Virus record (IMG/VR): IMGVR_UViG_3300049491_000529
Coordinates: 1 to 28,304 of that record
Source of the DNA: a virus
Strand: one strand, 5' to 3'
DNA: 28,304 bases
Shown: piece after piece, positions 5,033 through 28,304 of the stretch
How positions within the stretch are numbered: the stretch's first letter is position 1
Layout: the number at the start of each line of letters is the position of its first letter
Notes under the pieces: generated by a model
Databases searched by the model: none
Told to the model about the DNA's origin: nothing
Seen by the model: the letters and a program-made list of their open reading frames with translations, nothing else
Position numbers and translations under genes: made by a program

Positions 5033-7828
5033 ATGAGTAATCCAAAATATACAAAAGGCGAACGCGGAAGGCGTAACGTTTTTATGATGGACCTAATCGG
5101 GTTCGGCAGCGGTAGTGATAACGGTGGGGGTACGCCTTCACCTGTGCAATTATACATTCCTATCCCGGACGCGCCTTTCTCAACCGGGTTTAATAGAGTG
5201 CAAGCGGGGCTAACGGTTGCCGGGCAATTTCGCACGTCTGATTTCGGTGGGTTCTTTGATATTATAATGGACGGTAACTTTACAGACGGGATAACGTTTG
5301 CGGGTCCCATCTTAGGTACTCAGGCGGTGCCGTATCGTTTTGTAAACAAAGCCGCGTGCGTTGTCGGTAATAATACAAAAGGGTTTGCAACGGTTAACGC
5401 GTCTATCGATTATATAGAAATTTACGGAAAGAACGCGGCCACGCCTATGATCATTTTTGCGACGGGGGCGTCCTTTAGCGCGATAGTTTGGGCGGCTCAG
5501 TCAGGCGGTACAAGTTTATTAATACAAAATATAGTGGCCAAAGACGCTGACTCCTCAGGCGTTTTAATTAATACATCCTCGGCAACGTCAACCTATCGAA
5601 ATTTAATTTTTAAGTTTTACCGAAACATCGGAAAGCTAACAGGCGAGGAAGGATTTTATTTAGGTAGTACGACCACACCCTTTGCGACCTTTGGTAGTAT
5701 AACTATACAAGATTGTTTCATCGCAAATAAGGGGTGGGACTCAGCGCAAATCGGACACTGCTTTAGCCTGAGCATGAACCGTTTTACGTCTTACAACACC
5801 GGGGTTGATAACACGAATCAGCAGGACCATTTAATACAGGTTATAGATACTAACGGCTTAATCGAAAATTCTGTTTTTGATTTGGCCCCGCGCCTGTGTA
5901 ACATCTTTACCCACGGGATAACGTTTCGTAACTGTTACTTCCGCTTTAATGATCCTACCGAGTTAGGTTTCATTGGTAGGACTGATAATTTAAGTTATTA
6001 CCCGACCCCGCGCTTTAACGGTCTGCCGATCTTATTTGAAAATTGCGTTTTCCATGACATGAGCGGGTCCGCGGTTGGCGCGTTAGTTAACGTGCAGGAG
6101 CGTATAGCAAACGTTGAATTTAAAAACTGTCAGTTTCAAACGCTTAAAACGATTTTGTTTCAGGACAGCCGCGCGGTTGGTTTTACAAACACGTTAATCG
6201 GAAACCTTACGACTAACGGTAACACACTCGTAACAAATTTAGAAGCGCCCGTGTATATGAGTCTAAGCGCGGACGCTTATGATACCCACGGCCTGATAAC
6301 AAATTCGTTTTTCCTTTCACGGGGTATGGGTTATAGAACTTACACCGCTTTTGATAACGCGTATAAAGCTGTTATTGATTACGCGGTCGCTCAGGGTTAC
6401 GCAGTACCCTCAGCGTCTGTTCAGTTATCACAAAGCAAACTCGTGTATGATTTAAAGGCCGCGGGGCTTTGGGATAAGTTAGACGTCTTTTATAATTTCC
6501 TTACTAACGGGGATCATAACTTTGCAAAAATAAATTGGAAGAGTCCGGGCGCGTTTCAGGCGGTGGGCACAGGTCACGAACCAACGTTTACCCCCTTTGT
6601 TGGTTTCAAAGCTAACGGGTCATCGCAATACCTTAGCACTCAGTGGACCCCGTCTGTTAACGGTGTTAATTATAAAATCGCTAACGCGGGATTTTTTGCG
6701 GACGTACTGATAACGGTTGAAGCGTCTTTACAGGCTATCGCCGCGGTAATCGAACCGGGTATAATAGCACAGTTATACATTGATGCCACGGGTAAAATAG
6801 TTTCTCAGCTTAACACGGGCGCGGCTGTTACCGGGAGCGTGGTTCAATTAGCTACCTTTGCGCACGCTTATCAAATGAACCCGAACGCGCGTATCTATCA
6901 AAACGGGGTGCAATCAGTTACAGGCGCGTCGACGGGCGCGACCCTTAACACCTTTCCAATATTTCTATTAGCGCGTAACAACGCGGGTGCGCCTAACCTT
7001 TTCGGTAATGATACGATTAAATGTTTCGGAGCGGGCGACGCTTTACAGGGCAGCGAGTTAGTATTATATAACATTTGGAACCGTTACAAGGCCGGGCTGA
7101 GTTCGCGGACAGCGTACGAGGCTGTTATCGCGTACGCAACGCTTCAGGGTTACGCGTTACCCTCAGACGATCAGCAAATAATTCAAAATGAGTTAGTCGA
7201 ATCTTTAATGGCCGCGGGTGTTTGGGATAAGTTAGACGTCTTTTATAATTTCCTCGGTAACGGGGACGCGGACTTTGCGCGGATTAACTGGAAGAACCCC
7301 GGTGTTAATCAGATAGACACAACGGCGAGTATATATACACCTAACGCGGGGATCAGGTTCTTATCAGATACACCGCTTAACTATTTGCCGGGCGGGGCTG
7401 ATAACTATAAACAGGACGACGCCTCTTTAGCGGTTGACTTAGTAACAGCCGGGCCGGGCGGGGACGCCTTTGATAGCACGTTAATCGATAATTTTTCCGC
7501 GGCCTTTGCTCAGGACGGAAATGATTTTCACCTGCTATGGGCGTTAAATGATCAGACGATTAAGGATACAAACTTAGGGCGTTACACGTTCGGGTTTTAC
7601 AGTCTGTTAATACAGCGGACCCCGGCAAATGATTTAACAGTATGGCGTGGCGGTTTCTTACAGGAAAGTTATAACGCGCCCGCGACCGGGTTACCTGTTA
7701 GCCCGTTTGCGTACTCAGCCGCGCCCCAAACGGTGCACCGTATGTTAGCAGCCGGGGGTTCGCTCGCGGGGGCTGAGGCTCAGTTAAACAGCGCGTGGCA
7801 GGTCTATGTGGGTTACTTCAGTCTATAA
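5033..7828 (+). CDS. tail spike/fibre with beta-helix and two repeated C-terminal domains
   Basis: 931 residues. Gly/Ser-rich N-terminus (about 1-50), then a long stretch (about 60-420) of short repeated turns such as IQDCF, FRNCYF, FENCVF and FKNCQF, the signature of a right-handed parallel beta-helix as in phage spikes and polysaccharide lyases. Two homologous modules follow (about 435-680 and 695-931), each with AAG(L/V)WDKLDVFYNFL, then (I/L)NWK(S/N)P and a strand-rich part resembling concanavalin/LamG-like receptor-binding modules. Similar DVFY...NWKNP modules occur in other Bacteroidota phage fibres. It is the last gene of the virion block. No autocleavage domain or catalytic residues can be assigned by eye, so depolymerase activity is open. 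Confidence 0.75.
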   Translation: MSNPKYTKGERGRRNVFMMDLIGFGSGSDNGGGTPSPVQLYIPIPDAPFSTGFNRVQAGLTVAGQFRTSDFGGFFDIIMDGNFTDGITFAGPILGTQAVPYRFVNKAACVVGNNTKGFATVNASIDYIEIYGKNAATPMIIFATGASFSAIVWAAQSGGTSLLIQNIVAKDADSSGVLINTSSATSTYRNLIFKFYRNIGKLTGEEGFYLGSTTTPFATFGSITIQDCFIANKGWDSAQIGHCFSLSMNRFTSYNTGVDNTNQQDHLIQVIDTNGLIENSVFDLAPRLCNIFTHGITFRNCYFRFNDPTELGFIGRTDNLSYYPTPRFNGLPILFENCVFHDMSGSAVGALVNVQERIANVEFKNCQFQTLKTILFQDSRAVGFTNTLIGNLTTNGNTLVTNLEAPVYMSLSADAYDTHGLITNSFFLSRGMGYRTYTAFDNAYKAVIDYAVAQGYAVPSASVQLSQSKLVYDLKAAGLWDKLDVFYNFLTNGDHNFAKINWKSPGAFQAVGTGHEPTFTPFVGFKANGSSQYLSTQWTPSVNGVNYKIANAGFFADVLITVEASLQAIAAVIEPGIIAQLYIDATGKIVSQLNTGAAVTGSVVQLATFAHAYQMNPNARIYQNGVQSVTGASTGATLNTFPIFLLARNNAGAPNLFGNDTIKCFGAGDALQGSELVLYNIWNRYKAGLSSRTAYEAVIAYATLQGYALPSDDQQIIQNELVESLMAAGVWDKLDVFYNFLGNGDADFARINWKNPGVNQIDTTASIYTPNAGIRFLSDTPLNYLPGGADNYKQDDASLAVDLVTAGPGGDAFDSTLIDNFSAAFAQDGNDFHLLWALNDQTIKDTNLGRYTFGFYSLLIQRTPANDLTVWRGGFLQESYNAPATGLPVSPFAYSAAPQTVHRMLAAGGSLAGAEAQLNSAWQVYVGYFSL

Positions 7829-10744: not shown

Positions 10745-11061
10745 TTGCTTAATTTTTTATTTTGGTCGTAAGTGTTTATTAATCGCTGATTCATTTTTTC
10801 GAGTAACATTAACGCGCGTACCCTTATAACATCTTTCTCCATGTTACTCAGCCCCGCGTTGGCAAGGTCAAATAGTAGATCGTACATGGCCGGAGCGTGA
10901 CTGATCAAAACCATGTTACCTTTGCGCTCAGCGCGGTCGGCACCCTCAGGGGCGAGCGGCTGTGTTACTATTTCGTTAAAGGGGCCGTCCGCGCTCGGCA
11001 TTACGAGGCTGTTATCATACTCTAAAAACCACGGTCCGGCTGTGTGTGTTAGTCTGTCCAT
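10741..11061 (-). CDS. phage protein of the THTxGPW type
   Basis: 106 residues beginning MDRLTHTAGPWFLEY. A THT(A/P)GPW start followed by short strands and later an ISHAPAMYDLL helix is a pattern found in many unrelated phages; its function is not known. It is the first gene after a good minus-strand promoter (11087-11121), with a leader of about 20 bases. It heads the operon that runs to 7850. Confidence 0.65.
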   Translation of the reverse strand: MDRLTHTAGPWFLEYDNSLVMPSADGPFNEIVTQPLAPEGADRAERKGNMVLISHAPAMYDLLFDLANAGLSNMEKDVIRVRALMLLEKMNQRLINTYDQNKKLSK

Positions 11062-11086
11062 TTTGTTTCTGTGTTTAAATCTGATA

Positions 11087-11121
11087 CAAATATAAACGAA
11101 AGGTTTGATTATTTGTTACAG
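11087..11121 (-). promoter_or_regulatory. minus-strand promoter P1 (twin of P2)
   Basis: Read on the minus strand: CTGTAAC, 20 bases, TATATTTG. The TATATTTG box is a perfect Bacteroidota -7 element, but the upstream element is CTGTAAC, not plain TTG. A 25-base block around and downstream of the box (11074-11098) is identical to 11748-11772 at P2, with the CTGTAAC at the same distance, so the two are co-regulated or recently duplicated. Confidence 0.7.
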
Positions 11122-11132
11122 TTAGTTAACAT

Positions 11133-11225
11133 TTATTTTTTGAAGCTCAGTACAAAGATTAACAGGGCCGCCTCCTCGGCGGTTTTGCGTTTCTTAGTGA
11201 TCAGCTTTTTAATCGTCTTTTTCAT
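11133..11225 (-). CDS. 30-residue Lys-rich peptide
   Basis: ATG at 11223-11225, TAA at 11133-11135. Starts MKKTIKKLITKKRKT, then an Ala/Leu-rich helix and a FKK end, so it would be an amphipathic basic helix. It lies between the 152-residue gene and promoter P1. Evidence is an A-rich start context and a sensible position; the short length leaves chance possible. Confidence 0.35.
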   Translation of the reverse strand: MKKTIKKLITKKRKTAEEAALLIFVLSFKK

Positions 11226-11728: not shown

Positions 11729-11760
11729 TGTGTGTTTTTTGTTTGTCTTTAAATCTGATA

Positions 11761-11795
11761 CAAATATAAACGGTTACTTTGAATATATGTTACAG
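11761..11795 (-). promoter_or_regulatory. minus-strand promoter P2 (twin of P1)
   Basis: On the minus strand: CTGTAAC (11789-11795), 20 bases, TATATTTG (11761-11768). Same 25-base core as P1. The predicted start is near 11754, giving a leader of about 25 bases to the ATG at 11728. Confidence 0.7.
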
Positions 11796-11799
11796 CTAA

Positions 11800-12070
11800 T
11801 CAAAAAATCTTTCAAAATACTTACGTCTATATAGCCCATAGAACCAGTAGACTAAACGGGAGCGGGCCGTACCGCTCAGAAAGGGGCTTTTTACCCCGCC
11901 CGGCTTACAGAAACCGGGTCAGGCTGAGCCCTCAGGCTTTGCCCTTATGTTTGTACGCCCGGAGCCGGGGGCCGCTGAGCGGGCCGATTTTGGGACCCCG
12001 GTTCCGGGCGGGCCGGGCTGATCTGAGCCGGGCACCTGTAACGTTATTACAGCGCTCAGCGGAAGCAAAA
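11800..12070. other. GC-rich, hairpin-dense noncoding island
   Basis: No convincing gene; the 78-residue minus-strand frame here is Pro/Arg/Gly junk crossing a terminator. From about 11850 the base composition rises well above the surroundings and many inverted repeats are packed together: 11860-11865/11872-11877, GGGG/CCCC at 11883-11897, CCCGG/CCGGG pairs near 11899, 11958 and 11997, CCGCTgAGCGG at 11972-11982, CTGTAA/TTACAG at 12036-12052. CTGAG/CTCAG recurs about six times. Candidates are a structured RNA, a replication or recombination site, or a protein-binding region. Confidence 0.6.
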
Positions 12071-14424: not shown

Positions 14425-14918
14425 TGCACGTATTGCCATTTAATACCTTTTTGTATTTTAAAAATTGTACTTATACAAACGTGGTAAATAATTGCAAGCT
14501 CCCTTAACAATAGTGTCGAGGAGCGTATTTTACGAACGTCGCCCTCTGTTAGCTTAGCGCGGGAGCGCGCAGTTTGTGACATTTTCTTACGTGTCTCGTC
14601 TGAATGTTTTCTATGTGACATTTTCTTACGTGTCTCGTCTGAATGTTTAAACCCTGACAACCCCTCGCCCCCGTCTGTTAAATTTACTAACTCAAAACCC
14701 TGCGCCCGGAACTCTTTAATCGTTTTCTTTTCTAAGTAAAGCGCGTCCCGCTCTGATAACCTAACGTGCAGTTTATAGGTTGTGAAGCCTTTGTATTTAC
14801 GTGTTACCCTTAACCACCACGCGCTTCGCTTACGGCTCAGCCATCTATCCCCGCGCCCCTTACCCACATAAAACGGTTTACCCTCGTGTGTGTGAACGTA
14901 AACATAATAATCGTTCAT
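14421..14918 (-). CDS. GIY-YIG homing endonuclease with NUMOD3 motifs
   Basis: 165 residues from the ATG at 14916-14918, which overlaps the previous stop. N-terminal GIY-YIG-type nuclease: YYVYVH then FYVGKG, a following Arg-rich segment and a Glu in LYLEKKTI. Next come two NUMOD3-type DNA-binding copies (FKHSDETRKKMS and RKHSDETRKKMS) and a C-terminal helix-turn-helix (ELAIIYHVCISTIFKI). This is the structure of free-standing homing endonucleases such as the T4 Seg proteins, which copy themselves and flanking DNA into related phages. It is inserted cleanly between two nuclease genes. The NUMOD3 copies are identical over 35 bases of DNA (14575-14609 and 14614-14648). Confidence 0.88.
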   Translation of the reverse strand: MNDYYVYVHTHEGKPFYVGKGRGDRWLSRKRSAWWLRVTRKYKGFTTYKLHVRLSERDALYLEKKTIKEFRAQGFELVNLTDGGEGLSGFKHSDETRKKMSHRKHSDETRKKMSQTARSRAKLTEGDVRKIRSSTLLLRELAIIYHVCISTIFKIQKGIKWQYVQ

Positions 14919-19437: not shown

Positions 19438-20144
19438 GGTATCAGGGAGGTAAACACAGGACCGCAAAGGAATTAATTCCTATCATAACAAAAAATCGCC
19501 GCCCGGATCAAGTATATGTAGAACCGTTTTGCGGTGGGCTTAACACAGTTATACAGGTAAGCAACCCGCGGATAGCAAACGACTTTCATAGTGATCTAAT
19601 CGCTATGTATAAAAAATTACAGCAGGGGTGGGTGCCCCCTATGTATATAAACGAGGACGAGTATAGACACATCGAAAAATTCGGCGAGCCTCATTTAAAA
19701 GGTTTCGTTGGCCACGCGTTTTCGTTTGGGGCTAAGTACTTCGGGACGTTTGCCCGCGGGATCAGAGGTAGAAAAGAAAATTGGAAGGGGCACTATGAAA
19801 GTATAACGCTGAGGGGTAAGGAGTCATGGGGCGGGGTAATGAAAATGGTCCCGTTAATAGAGGGGGTGGCGTTTCATAACGTTAGTTACGAACAGCTGCG
19901 TATCCCGCCTCGCTCACTCATATACTGTGACCCCCCGTATAAGGGCACCGTTGGATACGGTAACAGCTTTAACCATAATCTTTTTTATGATTGGTGCCGC
20001 TTACAGAAAGCAAAGGGCCACGATATTTTTATATCTGAGTATCAAATGCCAAAGGATTTTAAATGCGTTTGGTCAAAGACTATACAGGTATCCTCCACCG
20101 TACACGGAAAAGGAAAAGCGACAGAAAAATTATTCACATTATGA
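19434..20144 (+). CDS. Dam-like D12-class DNA adenine methyltransferase
   Basis: 236 residues with RYQGGK at 2-7, VEPFCGG at 29-35 (AdoMet-binding FxGxG variant), an acidic N-D pair near 49-50 and the catalytic DPPY at 166-169, in the order of the alpha/D12 class. It methylates adenine N6 in a short target, which may protect phage DNA from host restriction or mark replication. The target sequence cannot be read from the protein. It is coupled to the ParB-like gene before and the 72-residue gene after. Confidence 0.88.
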   Translation: MRYQGGKHRTAKELIPIITKNRRPDQVYVEPFCGGLNTVIQVSNPRIANDFHSDLIAMYKKLQQGWVPPMYINEDEYRHIEKFGEPHLKGFVGHAFSFGAKYFGTFARGIRGRKENWKGHYESITLRGKESWGGVMKMVPLIEGVAFHNVSYEQLRIPPRSLIYCDPPYKGTVGYGNSFNHNLFYDWCRLQKAKGHDIFISEYQMPKDFKCVWSKTIQVSSTVHGKGKATEKLFTL

Positions 20145-20359
20145 GAAACAGGAAAAAAATAATCCGCGAGATGAGGGAGCGCCGATTAGCACACGACCTT
20201 AAAAATACGCTGCCGGGTAACATAACGGTGGTCCCTATTCTTTACCGTAACGAGGCGGGTACTTTAAAACCGTTTACGCAATTTGAATTACCCGCACCGG
20301 TAAATAAAAATGTTAACGTTAAGAGATCGTTAAAAAATATCCAAATTCTATATAAATAA
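20141..20359 (+). CDS. 72-residue basic hypothetical protein
   Basis: Start chosen at the ATG overlapping the methylase stop (ATGA at 20141); a longer frame inside the methylase is a shadow. Very basic helical start (MRNRKKIIREMRERRLAHDL), then strands with TQFELPAPV and a Lys/Asn-rich end. The 30 bases 20275-20304 that encode TQFELPAPV recur exactly in the next gene. Function unknown; nucleic-acid binding by charge is possible. Confidence 0.55.
   Translation: MRNRKKIIREMRERRLAHDLKNTLPGNITVVPILYRNEAGTLKPFTQFELPAPVNKNVNVKRSLKNIQILYK
20275..20304 (+). repeat. donor copy A (30 bases) of mosaic repeat
   Basis: Exact 30-base match to 20428-20457. Both copies are read in the same frame (TQFELPAPV). 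This is the copy embedded in the 72-residue gene. Confidence 0.9.
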
Positions 20360-20371
20360 ACAATTAACAAA

Positions 20372-20698
20372 ATGAAAAAAATTATTGATTCACGTAATGG
20401 TAAGCCGTGGGACGAGGTCCCTTCCGATACGCAATTTGAATTACCCGCACCGGTAAAAATTATTGATTCACGTACTCACATTAACACGCTCAGCGATCTA
20501 TGCTGTTACACGAGCAAAACGTTTTCTATTATCTTAGACGGTAATAACCTTAACGTTATCCGGGAGCGCGATAAGCAAATTATAGAAACGGTCGAAATAG
20601 GCGAGAATTTTCTTGTGATCGATGTACGCGAGGACGCTTTGGAAAAGTTCCGCGCGTTAAAGGAAAAATATATTTTCGATTACGATAACGTTTTATAA
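20372..20698 (+). CDS. 108-residue protein with mosaic N-terminus
   Basis: Unrecognised; the body (about 36-108) looks like a folded small domain (TFSIILDGNNLNVIRERD, then IGENFLVIDVREDALEKF). The first 35 residues are assembled from copied pieces: KIIDSR, then GKPWDEVPSD (as in the downstream helicase), then TQFELPAPV (as in the upstream gene), then KIIDSR again. Removing the 78-base insertion (26 codons) restores a continuous simpler N-terminus, MKKIIDSRTHINTL. The insertion keeps the frame and all copied segments keep their original reading frame. Confidence 0.65.
   Translation: MKKIIDSRNGKPWDEVPSDTQFELPAPVKIIDSRTHINTLSDLCCYTSKTFSIILDGNNLNVIRERDKQIIETVEIGENFLVIDVREDALEKFRALKEKYIFDYDNVL
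20377..20474 (+). repeat. composite mosaic insertion B-C-A-B
   Basis: B1 at 20377-20396, C at 20397-20428, A at 20428-20457, B2 at 20455-20474. B1 and B2 are identical over 20 bases. C is identical to 20738-20769 (32 bases) and A to 20275-20304 (30 bases). The pieces abut with only 0, 1 and 3 bases of overlap at the joints, which look like microhomologies. Confidence 0.9.
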
Positions 20699-20700
20699 CT

Positions 20701-22128
20701 ATGAATTTAAATATTTGTAGATTCGGCAAGGCTCACTATGGTAAGCCGTGGGACGAGGTCCCTTCCGATTATTTGCGTTGGATGTTAGAAAACACAGCCG
20801 GGTATAATACAGACATTGCCCGCGCTGAGTTAGCCCGGAGAACGCGTACGCTGTTTAACTTTCAAACGCTTACACCTGAGCAGCTTAAAGCCGGGACCCC
20901 TATGATAGCCGGGGATAACGTTGGTATCATAGGCGCAGCGGGCTGCGGAAAGAGTTACATAATAAAGCAAACGGATAACAAGTTACTCCTCTGTCCCACG
21001 GGTATAAGCGCTATTAACGCGGGGGGCCAAACGTTCCACAGCTTTTTCCGTATAGACCCCGCGGACCCGTTAGTGATGATTAAAGTTAATATTAACATAA
21101 CGGAAAACATGGTTGTGTTCGATGAAATCTTTTTTACGTCCCCGGTCCTGTTAGATAGTATTTTAACACAGTACCCAGCGTTATTGTCTAAACAATTAAT
21201 TTTTACCGGGGACCCGTATCAGTTACCCCCGGTTAAGTATAAGAAAGAGGAGGACGACGACTCTGAGTATACGGAAGAAGAGGAAGAGTTAATCGCCTCT
21301 AATATCAAAACGTCAAAGGGTACGTTGTTTGACGTATTAAAGAAACATGACATTAAGGTGCGGTGGGTTGAGTTACATAACTCGGTCCGTCATAAAAACG
21401 ATTTAGTTTTCGCAGACGCCCTTAGCCGTATAAGAGTCGGTGGCGCGACCCCGGATGACTTAACGTTACTAAACACCCGCGTAAGCGTGCCGCCTGATAA
21501 CGCGTTAGTGCTGACCTTTCGCAAAGCGTTAGTTAAACGCTATAACGAGGCATACCTCAGCGGGTTTGATAACGTGGTAAGTTATGAGGCCGTGGCGTTT
21601 GACTTAGTACCTGAGGAGAAACGCGAACTCCCGTGGTACATTAAAGAAAAAAAATCGTTACGTAAACCCCCCGCGCCTTTCCGGGTCGCGCTTAACTGTA
21701 ACGTTGTAGTTTTGTATAATGATTTACAGGCTGAGGGTAACCGATTTGTGAACGGAGACTTGGGCGAGGTTACCGGGTACGATGCAAAACATATTTTCGT
21801 TAAACTGTTACGTAACGGGGAGACGATAGCGTTCGGGCAAGATCATATTTGCAAAGGGAAAAAATACATGGGGTACAAAAATTTTGGCTTAGCCATAGCA
21901 AAGGCGATGACAATACATAAGTCACAGGGGTGCACTATATACGGTAACGTTCACATTCACATTGACGAGTACCTCGCAAAAAAATGGCCCGGTGCTTTAT
22001 ACACAGCTATAAGCCGCTGCGGGACCTTAGCGCAGGTAACATTTAATCAGGCAGTTAAGAAAGCGTTTTTAAAACAAAAACCTTTTGCTTACTTTAACAG
22101 TCCGGAAAACGAAAAAATTAATTCTTAA
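20701..22128 (+). CDS. DUF3820-like domain fused to SF1 (RecD/Dda/Pif1-type) helicase
   Basis: 475 residues. Residues about 8-48 (FGKAHYGKPWDEVPSDYLRWML) resemble the DUF3820 small domain. The rest is an SF1 5'-3' helicase: Walker A GAAGCGKS (78-85), a Q-like ATP-binding start, TFHSFF motif Ia, VFDE (139-142), GDPYQLPP motif III (170-177), MTIHKSQGCT motif V and ALYTAISRC motif VI. It probably unwinds DNA at forks or in recombination, like T4 Dda. An acidic loop (about 183-202) interrupts the core after motif III. Part of the N-terminal domain (20738-20769) is the source of repeat C. Confidence 0.88.
   Translation: MNLNICRFGKAHYGKPWDEVPSDYLRWMLENTAGYNTDIARAELARRTRTLFNFQTLTPEQLKAGTPMIAGDNVGIIGAAGCGKSYIIKQTDNKLLLCPTGISAINAGGQTFHSFFRIDPADPLVMIKVNINITENMVVFDEIFFTSPVLLDSILTQYPALLSKQLIFTGDPYQLPPVKYKKEEDDDSEYTEEEEELIASNIKTSKGTLFDVLKKHDIKVRWVELHNSVRHKNDLVFADALSRIRVGGATPDDLTLLNTRVSVPPDNALVLTFRKALVKRYNEAYLSGFDNVVSYEAVAFDLVPEEKRELPWYIKEKKSLRKPPAPFRVALNCNVVVLYNDLQAEGNRFVNGDLGEVTGYDAKHIFVKLLRNGETIAFGQDHICKGKKYMGYKNFGLAIAKAMTIHKSQGCTIYGNVHIHIDEYLAKKWPGALYTAISRCGTLAQVTFNQAVKKAFLKQKPFAYFNSPENEKINS
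20738..20769 (+). repeat. donor copy C (32 bases) of mosaic repeat
   Basis: Exact match to 20397-20428. It encodes the YGKPWDEVPSD part of the DUF3820-like domain, whose resemblance to a known family makes this the likely original. Confidence 0.9.
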
Positions 22129-24966: not shown

Positions 24967-25397
24967 CATATACCCAACGTTATGAAAACTCGCGCCCTTT
25001 ACACACTAAACCGAAAACAAAAAAGCGGGTTTTTAGGGGCTCTGAGGGTTAGGCATTTCGCTTTAGGGAGGCGGTTTTTCGGTTTAGCAGCCGCGCGCGC
25101 TGAAATGTGTATTTTTAATCGTGGTTTCGGGGGGCGGTTTTTCGGTTTAGCCAACCCCCTTTCGATTTAGGGTTTAGGGCTTAACTGCCTGATAATCTGA
25201 GTCGCAAAACCCTAAACCCATTTTTCTTAAACTTTTAGAAAAAAAGAATAGTAAGTAAGTAATCACATATTTACCACTGGTATAAAGATTAGCGGCCTGT
25301 TTTTTAGATTTCGGTTTATGACTGCTTTTTTGCCTTACGGCTGTCTGACACGTTTTCCGGGAAACATCGCGATAAAAATCATATACCCAACGTTATG
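24967..25397 (+). other. 413-base segment bounded by 18-base direct repeats, iteron- and AT-rich (origin-like)
   Basis: An identical 18-base sequence occurs at 24967-24984 and 25380-25397. Between the copies no supported gene is seen; the 71-codon frame running to 25170 is made of repeat-derived residues (RRFFGLA/GRFFGLA). Contents: CTAAACCGAAAA at 25006-25017 and its inverse TTTTCGGTTTAG at 25076-25087 and 25139-25150 (part of 19-base repeats 63 bases apart), a fourth partial copy near 25305, several TTTAGGG units with an inverted CCCTAAACCC near 25210, then an A/T-rich stretch (about 25215-25280). Iterons, inverted repeat and AT-rich DNA next to a primase-helicase gene look like a replication origin. 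Confidence 0.6.
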
Positions 25398-26548: not shown

Positions 26549-27892
26549 ATGGGCGCGATTAATTTTTCCTATACACCCGCGCAGGACTTAGTATTTTTCA
26601 AATCGAATAAACGGTTCACGGTTGTAACGAAAGGTCGCCGGGCGGGTTTAACACGCGGGGCTGCTCAGGCGTTCATTGAGTGGTCCCACGGTAGTAACCC
26701 CAAGCGTTTGCTTTGGGGTGAAACGATTTATAGTAACGTGCAACGGTATTTTGATTTATACTTTAAGCCGTATTTAGATTTACTCGCGCCAAGCTCATGG
26801 TCATGGTCACAGAAAATAATGCAGCTGACTATTAACGGGACCGTTATAGATTTCCGGTCCGCTGATAATCCGGAAACATGGGAGGGCTTTGGTTACCACG
26901 TTATCTATTTAAACGAGGCCGGGATTATTTTACGCAACCCTGATCTGTATAAAAAAACTGTGTTACCTATGTTAATGGATTACCCTGATAGTAGGTTAAT
27001 CGCCGCGGGTGTGCCTAAGGGAAAAAAATTGCGTAACGGGGAGCCGCACCCGTTTTATGAACTTTGGGAGCGCGCGTTAAACGACCCCGCGTATATACGT
27101 TATAACTTTAGTTCATACGATAACCCGTTTCTTACAGCCTCAGACATAGACGAGCTTGTAAGATCATTTGATGAACAAACAAAGTTACAGGAAATCGACG
27201 GGCAGTTTATAGACCTGACAGACAACCCGTACTTATACGCCTTTGAGTCAGTTAAACACGTTGTTAAAAGTTATACGCCCAACCCCTCGCAACCTATATG
27301 GCTGGCGTTTGATTTTAACATCGAGCCTAATAGCTGTATTGTAGGACAGCAGCCCGATTATTACAGCGGGGTGGTATTTGACGAGGTAAGCGTTAAGGGG
27401 TCGACCACCGAAGTTTGCAATCAGATCATAGCTAAATATTCTCATTGGCTTAACAAGGGTTTGGTATTTGTTACCGGGGACGCCACGGGAAAAAATCGTA
27501 ATGCTATGAGTGGCGAGACGACTAACTACCTGCTAATTAAAAAGGCTCTTAACCTCAGGGACTATAACTTAAAGGTTTCGCAATTTAACATGGTGTTAAA
27601 AACATCGCGTATCCTGTGTAACTCTATACTAAGCAAAGGCGAGGTGCGTATTACGGAAAACTGTAAACAGGTTATTGCGGACTGTTTGTTAGCTAACGTT
27701 GATACAGGGGGCGAACTCATAAAGGACAGCGGCTTACACAAGTTTGACTGTTTGCGTTATCTATTAGAAAAATGGTTTCCTGATTTCGTTGATAAAGGAC
27801 ATAAGTATACCCGGCCCGGTAAACCACCACCGCCCTCAGCGTTGGAGCGGTCTGTAAGTGAAAAAGAAAAATTAAAACCTGTTATAAGATGA
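26549..27892 (+). CDS. terL: terminase large subunit
   Basis: 447 residues. ATPase: KGRRAGLT (28-35), a deviant Walker A with the Lys at the front and no Lys before the Thr, similar in layout to lambda gpA's KSARVGYS; Walker B VIYLNEAG with E123. RNase H-like nuclease: D255 in AFDFN, D311 in VTGDATG and D400 in HKFDC, the three metal-binding acids. It cuts and pumps DNA into the prohead through the portal, which is not in this window. The 22 bases 27329-27350 recur inverted in the next gene. The stop overlaps the next start. Confidence 0.92.
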   Translation: MGAINFSYTPAQDLVFFKSNKRFTVVTKGRRAGLTRGAAQAFIEWSHGSNPKRLLWGETIYSNVQRYFDLYFKPYLDLLAPSSWSWSQKIMQLTINGTVIDFRSADNPETWEGFGYHVIYLNEAGIILRNPDLYKKTVLPMLMDYPDSRLIAAGVPKGKKLRNGEPHPFYELWERALNDPAYIRYNFSSYDNPFLTASDIDELVRSFDEQTKLQEIDGQFIDLTDNPYLYAFESVKHVVKSYTPNPSQPIWLAFDFNIEPNSCIVGQQPDYYSGVVFDEVSVKGSTTEVCNQIIAKYSHWLNKGLVFVTGDATGKNRNAMSGETTNYLLIKKALNLRDYNLKVSQFNMVLKTSRILCNSILSKGEVRITENCKQVIADCLLANVDTGGELIKDSGLHKFDCLRYLLEKWFPDFVDKGHKYTRPGKPPPPSALERSVSEKEKLKPVIR

Positions 27893-28110
27893 ACGCGATT
27901 AAATTAAAATTACTAACGGATGAATTAAAAGTTGCTGACCGGGACGTGGCCGCGTTGACTAAAGAGAAAGCGCAGCTTGAGCTGTCCTACAATACAGCTA
28001 TTGTGGCTGCGCTGACTAAAGAGAAAGCGCAGCTTGAAAGGGCGTTAGAGAAATTAAATGCTAAACGGGTTAAGTTACTTGATAAACTCGCAAAAGAAAA
28101 CGGATGTTAA
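27889..28110 (+). CDS. 73-residue coiled-coil protein with internal duplication
   Basis: Helical, Lys/Leu/Glu-rich (a single coiled coil). VAALTKEKAQLE occurs twice, at about residues 20-31 and 39-50, separated by LSYNTAI. At DNA level the copies (27946-27980 and 28003-28037) are 35 bases with two synonymous differences, and the DNA between them is an inverted copy of terL (see repeat). The start overlaps terL's stop. Function unknown; a head or packaging accessory by position. Confidence 0.65.
   Translation: MNAIKLKLLTDELKVADRDVAALTKEKAQLELSYNTAIVAALTKEKAQLERALEKLNAKRVKLLDKLAKENGC
27946..28037 (+). repeat. 35-base duplication enclosing an inverted 22-base copy of terL
   Basis: Copies at 27946-27980 and 28003-28037; the 22 bases between (27981-28002) are the exact reverse complement of 27329-27350. 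The period is 57 bases (19 codons), preserving the frame. The two differences between copies are both synonymous. Confidence 0.9.
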
Positions 28111-28304
28111 CTGAGGTTATATTAAAACGGTGGCGGGCGTTGGGGTTAGTGGCGGATATACCCTCAGCGTTGGAAAGGGAAATGGCACACGAGGCTGCGG
28201 TTGCTTTGCGTATATTGCAGGACTCAGAGCGCGTGTTTGAGATTAGCTGGCGATTTGTTTTTTGTTTCATCGCGTTGAGCGCGTTTGTTATTTGGTGTAT
28301 GTTT
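28104..28304 (+). CDS. hypothetical membrane protein, partial (cut by window end)
   Basis: ATG at 28104, overlapping the previous stop by seven bases; 67 codons are open to the last base. Amphipathic start (MLTEVILKRWRALGLVAD), an Ala/Glu helix, then a hydrophobic segment (WRFVFCFIALSAFVIWCMF) that is probably membrane spanning. Placed after terL where a portal might be expected, so it is an extra gene. No family recognised. Confidence 0.6.
   Translation, partial: MLTEVILKRWRALGLVADIPSALEREMAHEAAVALRILQDSERVFEISWRFVFCFIALSAFVIWCMF

Follow-up and report, generated by a model that had tools for sequence, protein, structure and literature searches.

Short-range template switching is already well documented, phage T4 included. 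Schultz and Drake (2008) reportedly described templated mutagenesis in bacteriophage T4, the templates being imperfect direct or indirect repeats, which, to judge from its title, resembles the present locus in that a phage mutation is templated by a nearby direct or inverted sequence. In great apes, a class of short-range template switches has been reported under a four-point model in which point 4 lies before point 1 (PMC7954356). As at the locus described here, a short opposite-strand copy is made from nearby, the strand returns, and the position of point 4 upstream of point 1 results in a net insertion; here, in contrast, the genome is that of a phage, the donor lies 630 bp away in the neighbouring gene, and the sequence before the event is reconstructed rather than observed. 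Quasipalindrome correction is the traditional prokaryotic product of template switching, and its first descriptions came from phage T4 and yeast (PMC7202029), the mutations in T4 rIIB being attributed to Ripley (1982) as quoted in that article. In the quasipalindrome mutations of E. coli and T4 rIIB, as in the present case, clustered changes perfect an imperfect hairpin, whereas here they occur alongside a larger duplication and a distant inverted insert.

Further comparisons come from yeast and from phage T7. Breaks in yeast give rise to templated inverted insertions, mostly of 5-34 bp (PMC11724301), which are likewise very short, inverted, and templated; those insertions are local fold-backs with microhomology beside the break, whereas here 0 nt of microhomology and a 35-nt duplication were observed. 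In rad27 yeast, palindrome-mediated insertions have been described in which a return upstream of the exit point duplicates the flanking DNA (PMC5677150). The nascent strand in that system, as proposed below, copies in the other direction and returns, and flanking DNA is duplicated; however, that strand folds back on itself at a palindrome, whereas the template considered here lies in another gene, at a distance of 630 nt. In vitro, the replisome of T7 changes templates at inverted repeats, and this is promoted by its exonuclease (PMC9484634). Against this background, the locus described below is, for a natural phage example, unusually clean, and a second case is found in the same contig.

The window, i.e., the whole stretch of DNA analysed, is an entire IMG/VR virus record of 28,304 bases classed as linear. 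The donor gene, terL, is located at 26549-27892 (plus strand, as are all elements of the two events described below) and codes for a terminase large subunit of 447 aa (PHROG phrog_2, E=2.9e-30; Pfam Terminase_6N; 71% identical to the protein of contig L008). The end of terL overlaps, in an ATGA, the start of the next gene in the list of open reading frames (27889-28110), which codes for a 73-aa protein predicted to be all-helical and is the recipient of the addition; no family was matched when this protein was searched against PHROG and Pfam. Sequence comparison revealed a 35-nt direct repeat in the recipient gene, copy 1 at 27946-27980 and copy 2 at 28003-28037, with a spacing of 57 and 33 of the 35 positions identical. 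The 22 nt between the copies (27981-28002; GCTGTCCTACAATACAGCTATT) and a segment of terL (27329-27350; AATAGCTGTATTGTAGGACAGC) are exact reverse complements over 22/22 positions, and the inverted arms are 630 nt apart. The insert directly adjoins copy 1 on one side and copy 2 on the other, so that the gap is filled with 0 bases left over. The addition of 57 nt corresponds to 19 codons and is in frame; the protein reads VAALTKEKAQLE-LSYNTAI-VAALTKEKAQLE, in which LSYNTAI is coded by the insert together with its junction codons. A preliminary description of this DNA had claimed a perfect inverted copy of an upstream terL segment, a gap filled to the base, and a period of 57 bases that keeps the frame; each of these was confirmed by base-level comparison, including the open reading frame.

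Genes for coiled coils often contain internal repeats, and the arrangement might accordingly be ascribed to a chance similarity combined with an ordinary tandem duplication of a coiled-coil segment. This explanation is essentially ruled out by the 22/22 identity that fills the gap exactly and by the shuffled sequences: when the window was shuffled 100 times with its dinucleotides preserved, inverted pairs of at least 18 nt within 1 kb never arose, and the longest such pair without overlap reached 17 nt, as compared with the 22 nt observed. A CRISPR-like repeat-spacer-repeat arrangement was also rejected, given that just two copies of the repeat are present in the record and that they lie inside a coding frame; no cas genes were found among the nine proteins searched.

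The direction of copying was indicated by the terL of L008 (71% protein identity), in which the homologous donor site, AACTCTTGCATCATTGGACAGC, codes NSCIIGQ where the present terL codes NSCIVGQ. The donor site being homologous there, the sequence is ancestral in terL, and the small gene carries the derived copy. The L008 contig stops at the end of terL, and the genes that follow terL in relatives at about 45-49% are unrelated. Relatives were sought in viral contigs with the terL, DNA polymerase, helicase, and capsid proteins and with a degenerate pattern of the repeat, and in genome contigs with terL. One relative of the polymerase (77%) was obtained, and terL was not found in the same record. 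In the other records scanned, no homologue of the 73-aa gene was observed; a weak match to its protein (39%, E=0.011; 40 relative records) lay inside an open frame of 662 residues and was not counted as a homologue. In known phages, no DNA match was found. Since the search yielded no close relative, whether with the insert or lacking it, we infer the small gene before the event from the duplication itself.

These findings suggest that the main event is most likely the scar of a template switch during replication in which the strand returned 35 nt upstream of its exit. At the end of the 35-nt segment, the nascent strand would have dissociated from its template and paired with the complementary terL strand some 630 bases upstream; after 22 bases had been copied there, it would have gone back to its own template 35 bases before the exit, giving a duplication, an inverted templated insert, and a duplication. 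The four points would then be ordered on the genome as 3 (27329), 2 (27350), 4 (27946), and 1 (27980). When the locus was examined under the four-point model, the insert was the reverse complement of nearby sequence, and the segments L-1, 2-3, and 4-R covered the derived sequence apart from two substitutions, which are explained by the hairpin correction described below. The phage codes for a DNA polymerase of family A with a 3'-5' exonuclease (proofreading) domain, and this polymerase may have been the agent. T7 gp5 is a family A polymerase.

Neither junction of the main event shares bases with the donor (0 nt at both). The microhomology that serves as a criterion for MMBIR/FoSTeS is thus absent and the usual support is missing; for the same reason, templated repair of a break stays the chief rival, although we regard it as improbable. 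In that case, the small gene would have suffered a double-strand break that was closed by end joining, with a 22-nt patch of terL copied or captured and the staggered ends duplicated; the product would be the same as that of a template switch, and the trigger would be a break rather than a stalled fork. Junctions sharing 0 bases are typical of end-joining capture, and yeast breaks yield templated inverted insertions in the very short range of 5-34 bp (PMC11724301). On the other hand, a stagger of 35 nt is long, and two further observations, given below, fit polymerase switching better.

The first of these concerns the mismatches between the repeat copies, which fall at repeat positions 6 (GCC/GCT, Ala) and 10 (TTG/CTG, Leu). 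The preliminary description had stated that the copies differ only at two synonymous positions, and indeed only these two were found; however, they do not look as if they had arisen as silent changes independently of each other. In copy 2, GCTGCGCT (28006-28013) and AGCGCAGC (28026-28033) form the 5' and 3' arms of a perfect 8-bp stem (8/8 pairs), and they are perfectly complementary through the two synonymous differences. The 3' arm is identical in copy 1 (27969-27976), in which the 5' arm reads GCCGCGTT (27949-27956), with 6/8 positions complementary to AGCGCAGC and a longest stem of 4 bp. A stem of at least 8 was produced by one of the 258 synonymous double changes in copy 1, namely the observed pair, and by 0.075% of random double changes; the hairpin test was chosen after the sequence had been seen, and both values are therefore strong hints and not formal probabilities. 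Because only 1/258 of the synonymous double changes perfects the stem, a single quasipalindrome correction accounts for both differences. Clustered changes that perfect an imperfect inverted repeat were thus found, and we infer that the change ran from copy 1 to copy 2. In the same event or a separate one, fold-back at the quasipalindrome would have converted GCCGCGTT...AGCGCAGC into GCTGCGCT...AGCGCAGC, making both synonymous changes. The insert also lies between AGCGCAGC of copy 1 (27969-27976) and GCTGCGCT of copy 2 (28006-28013); with the plus strand as the one under synthesis, copy 1 could thus have provided the template. If copy 2 was ancestral instead, a perfect hairpin would have been present at the switch site, and stalling there would likewise fit. 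A correction of this kind is better accommodated by polymerase switching than by break repair.

The second observation is another event, at 20377-20474, within an open reading frame of 108 aa. By sequence comparison, a 20-nt direct repeat was located at 20377-20396 (copy A1) and 20455-20474 (copy A2), and the 58 nt between the copies are exact copies of two local donors, both in direct orientation. Part B (20397-20428) is a 32-nt exact copy of 20738-20769, 341 bp downstream, which codes GKPWDEVPSD in a helicase-like gene (20701-22128). Part C (20428-20457) is a 30-nt exact copy of 20275-20304, 153 bp upstream, which codes TQFELPAPV in the open reading frame 20063-20359; it shares 1 nt with part B and 3 nt with copy A2, so that the three junctions share 0, 1, and 3 nt. 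The addition amounts to 78 nt and is in frame, and both parts stay in the frame of their donor genes. Since every match is exact, the event looks recent. It constitutes independent support for local serial copying in this phage, and serial copying from two donors with 1 and 3 shared bases again fits polymerase switching better than break repair. Taken together, the hairpin correction, the second event, and the donor site in L008 support the template or strand switching from an inverted donor that had been proposed beforehand, as the most parsimonious explanation.

Two events in one contig could also hint at a shared technical cause, i.e., a chimera formed during amplification or a misassembly of the single metagenomic contig. 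The record is one unverified IMG/VR contig for which no close relative was found, and strand-displacement amplification in vitro yields inverted chimeras (PMC9484634). However, both insertions (57 and 78 nt) are in frame and open, the donors of the second event are all direct, and a chimera would need to dominate the read consensus. Furthermore, the two synonymous differences between the repeat copies argue against a fresh duplication in vitro, unless the hairpin correction was simultaneous. An artefact is hence considered quite unlikely.

To place the two events among other phage DNA, 65 records (1.23 Mb of phage DNA, the window included) were scanned for a repeat, a templated gap, and a repeat. 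No clean case was found outside the window in the 1.2 Mb of other phage DNA; hits in L104, L127, and L138 were judged to be tandem repeat arrays and not counted. Inverted exact matches of at least 16 nt with a loop of 60-1000 nt numbered one in the window, as compared with just three in the remaining 1.2 Mb of phage DNA. Two clean events in 28 kb as compared with none in 1.2 Mb might tentatively be read as a sign that serial local template switching repeatedly remodels small genes in this phage lineage, turning bits of neighbouring genes, sense or antisense, into new in-frame peptide, with a replication machinery that is maybe unusually prone to it; the window was chosen for the first event, so the second alone carries weight (1 in 28 kb as compared with 0 in 1.2 Mb), and most of the surveyed records are relatives in terL or polymerase and hence not a random sample of phages. 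We hold this reading to be doubtful. In an unrelated phage (L133, MW202621), a 23-nt exact inverted pair, CGTTGTAAACAACTATTTTCAAC, was noted at 35411-35433 and 36056-36078, which is probably a regulatory site.

As for the consequence of the main event, AlphaFold2 with a single sequence as the input predicted the 73-aa protein to be one uninterrupted helix (residues 3-72, mean pLDDT 95.6). In this model, the antisense-derived LSYNTAI and the repeated VAALTKEKAQLE would only extend the helix by 19 residues. Single-sequence helical models tend to score as confident, and the helix is accordingly taken as mild support for tolerance. The product of the switch would then have been retained as an in-frame addition amounting to merely 19 residues more of helix.

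The predicted fold of the message of terL and the small gene is dominated by the 22-bp inverted duplex, because the inverted copy itself creates the pairing. It might be supposed that the antisense copy was kept for this duplex, or for nested hairpins, in the shared message, which would be cut or would regulate translation. The fold of 27280-28060 contained a continuous helix of 22 bp plus one G-U pair (z = -3.39), and 27936-28050 folded with z = -2.55. However, any inverted copy folds in this way by construction, and the origin of the copy would still need template switching; selection for structure is regarded as highly unlikely.

With replication template switching as the preferred origin, the locus presents a case in which antisense DNA of a conserved gene has been recruited as sense coding sequence of its neighbour, and the donor, the junctions, and the hairpin correction are still readable. 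With two events in one contig, phage genomes would be practical for measuring how often template switching, as opposed to point mutation or exchange between phages, gives rise to small new proteins, and the scan for a repeat, a templated gap, and a repeat is easily applied to large phage collections.

Several other repeats were observed in the window. An identical 14-nt sequence, CCCTCAGCGTTGGA, is present in the same frame (PSALE) at 27833-27846, in the variable tail of terL, and at 28161-28174, in the gene after next. According to the shuffles, 0.13 pairs of exactly 14 nt would be expected by chance, as compared with two observed, and the pair at 27833-27846/28161-28174 is not significant alone; it is possibly a third local copy. 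An exact 35-nt repeat with a period of 39 (14575-14609 and 14614-14648) in the NUMOD3 region of a homing-endonuclease-like gene is a recent tandem duplication; like the repeats at 6359-7302, these NUMOD3 repeats (14575-14648) were regarded as domain repeats of an ordinary kind. Between larger genes, at 25006-25151, GGCGGTTTTTCGGTTTAGC repeats and an inverted CTAAACCGAAAA were found, which may represent structured RNA or terminators. Finally, repeats lying outside or at the edges of larger genes were observed at 11061-11138 and 11735-11812 (TTTAAATCTGATACAAATATAAACG) and at 24967-24984 and 25380-25397 (CATATACCCAACGTTATG); these are perhaps promoters or operators.
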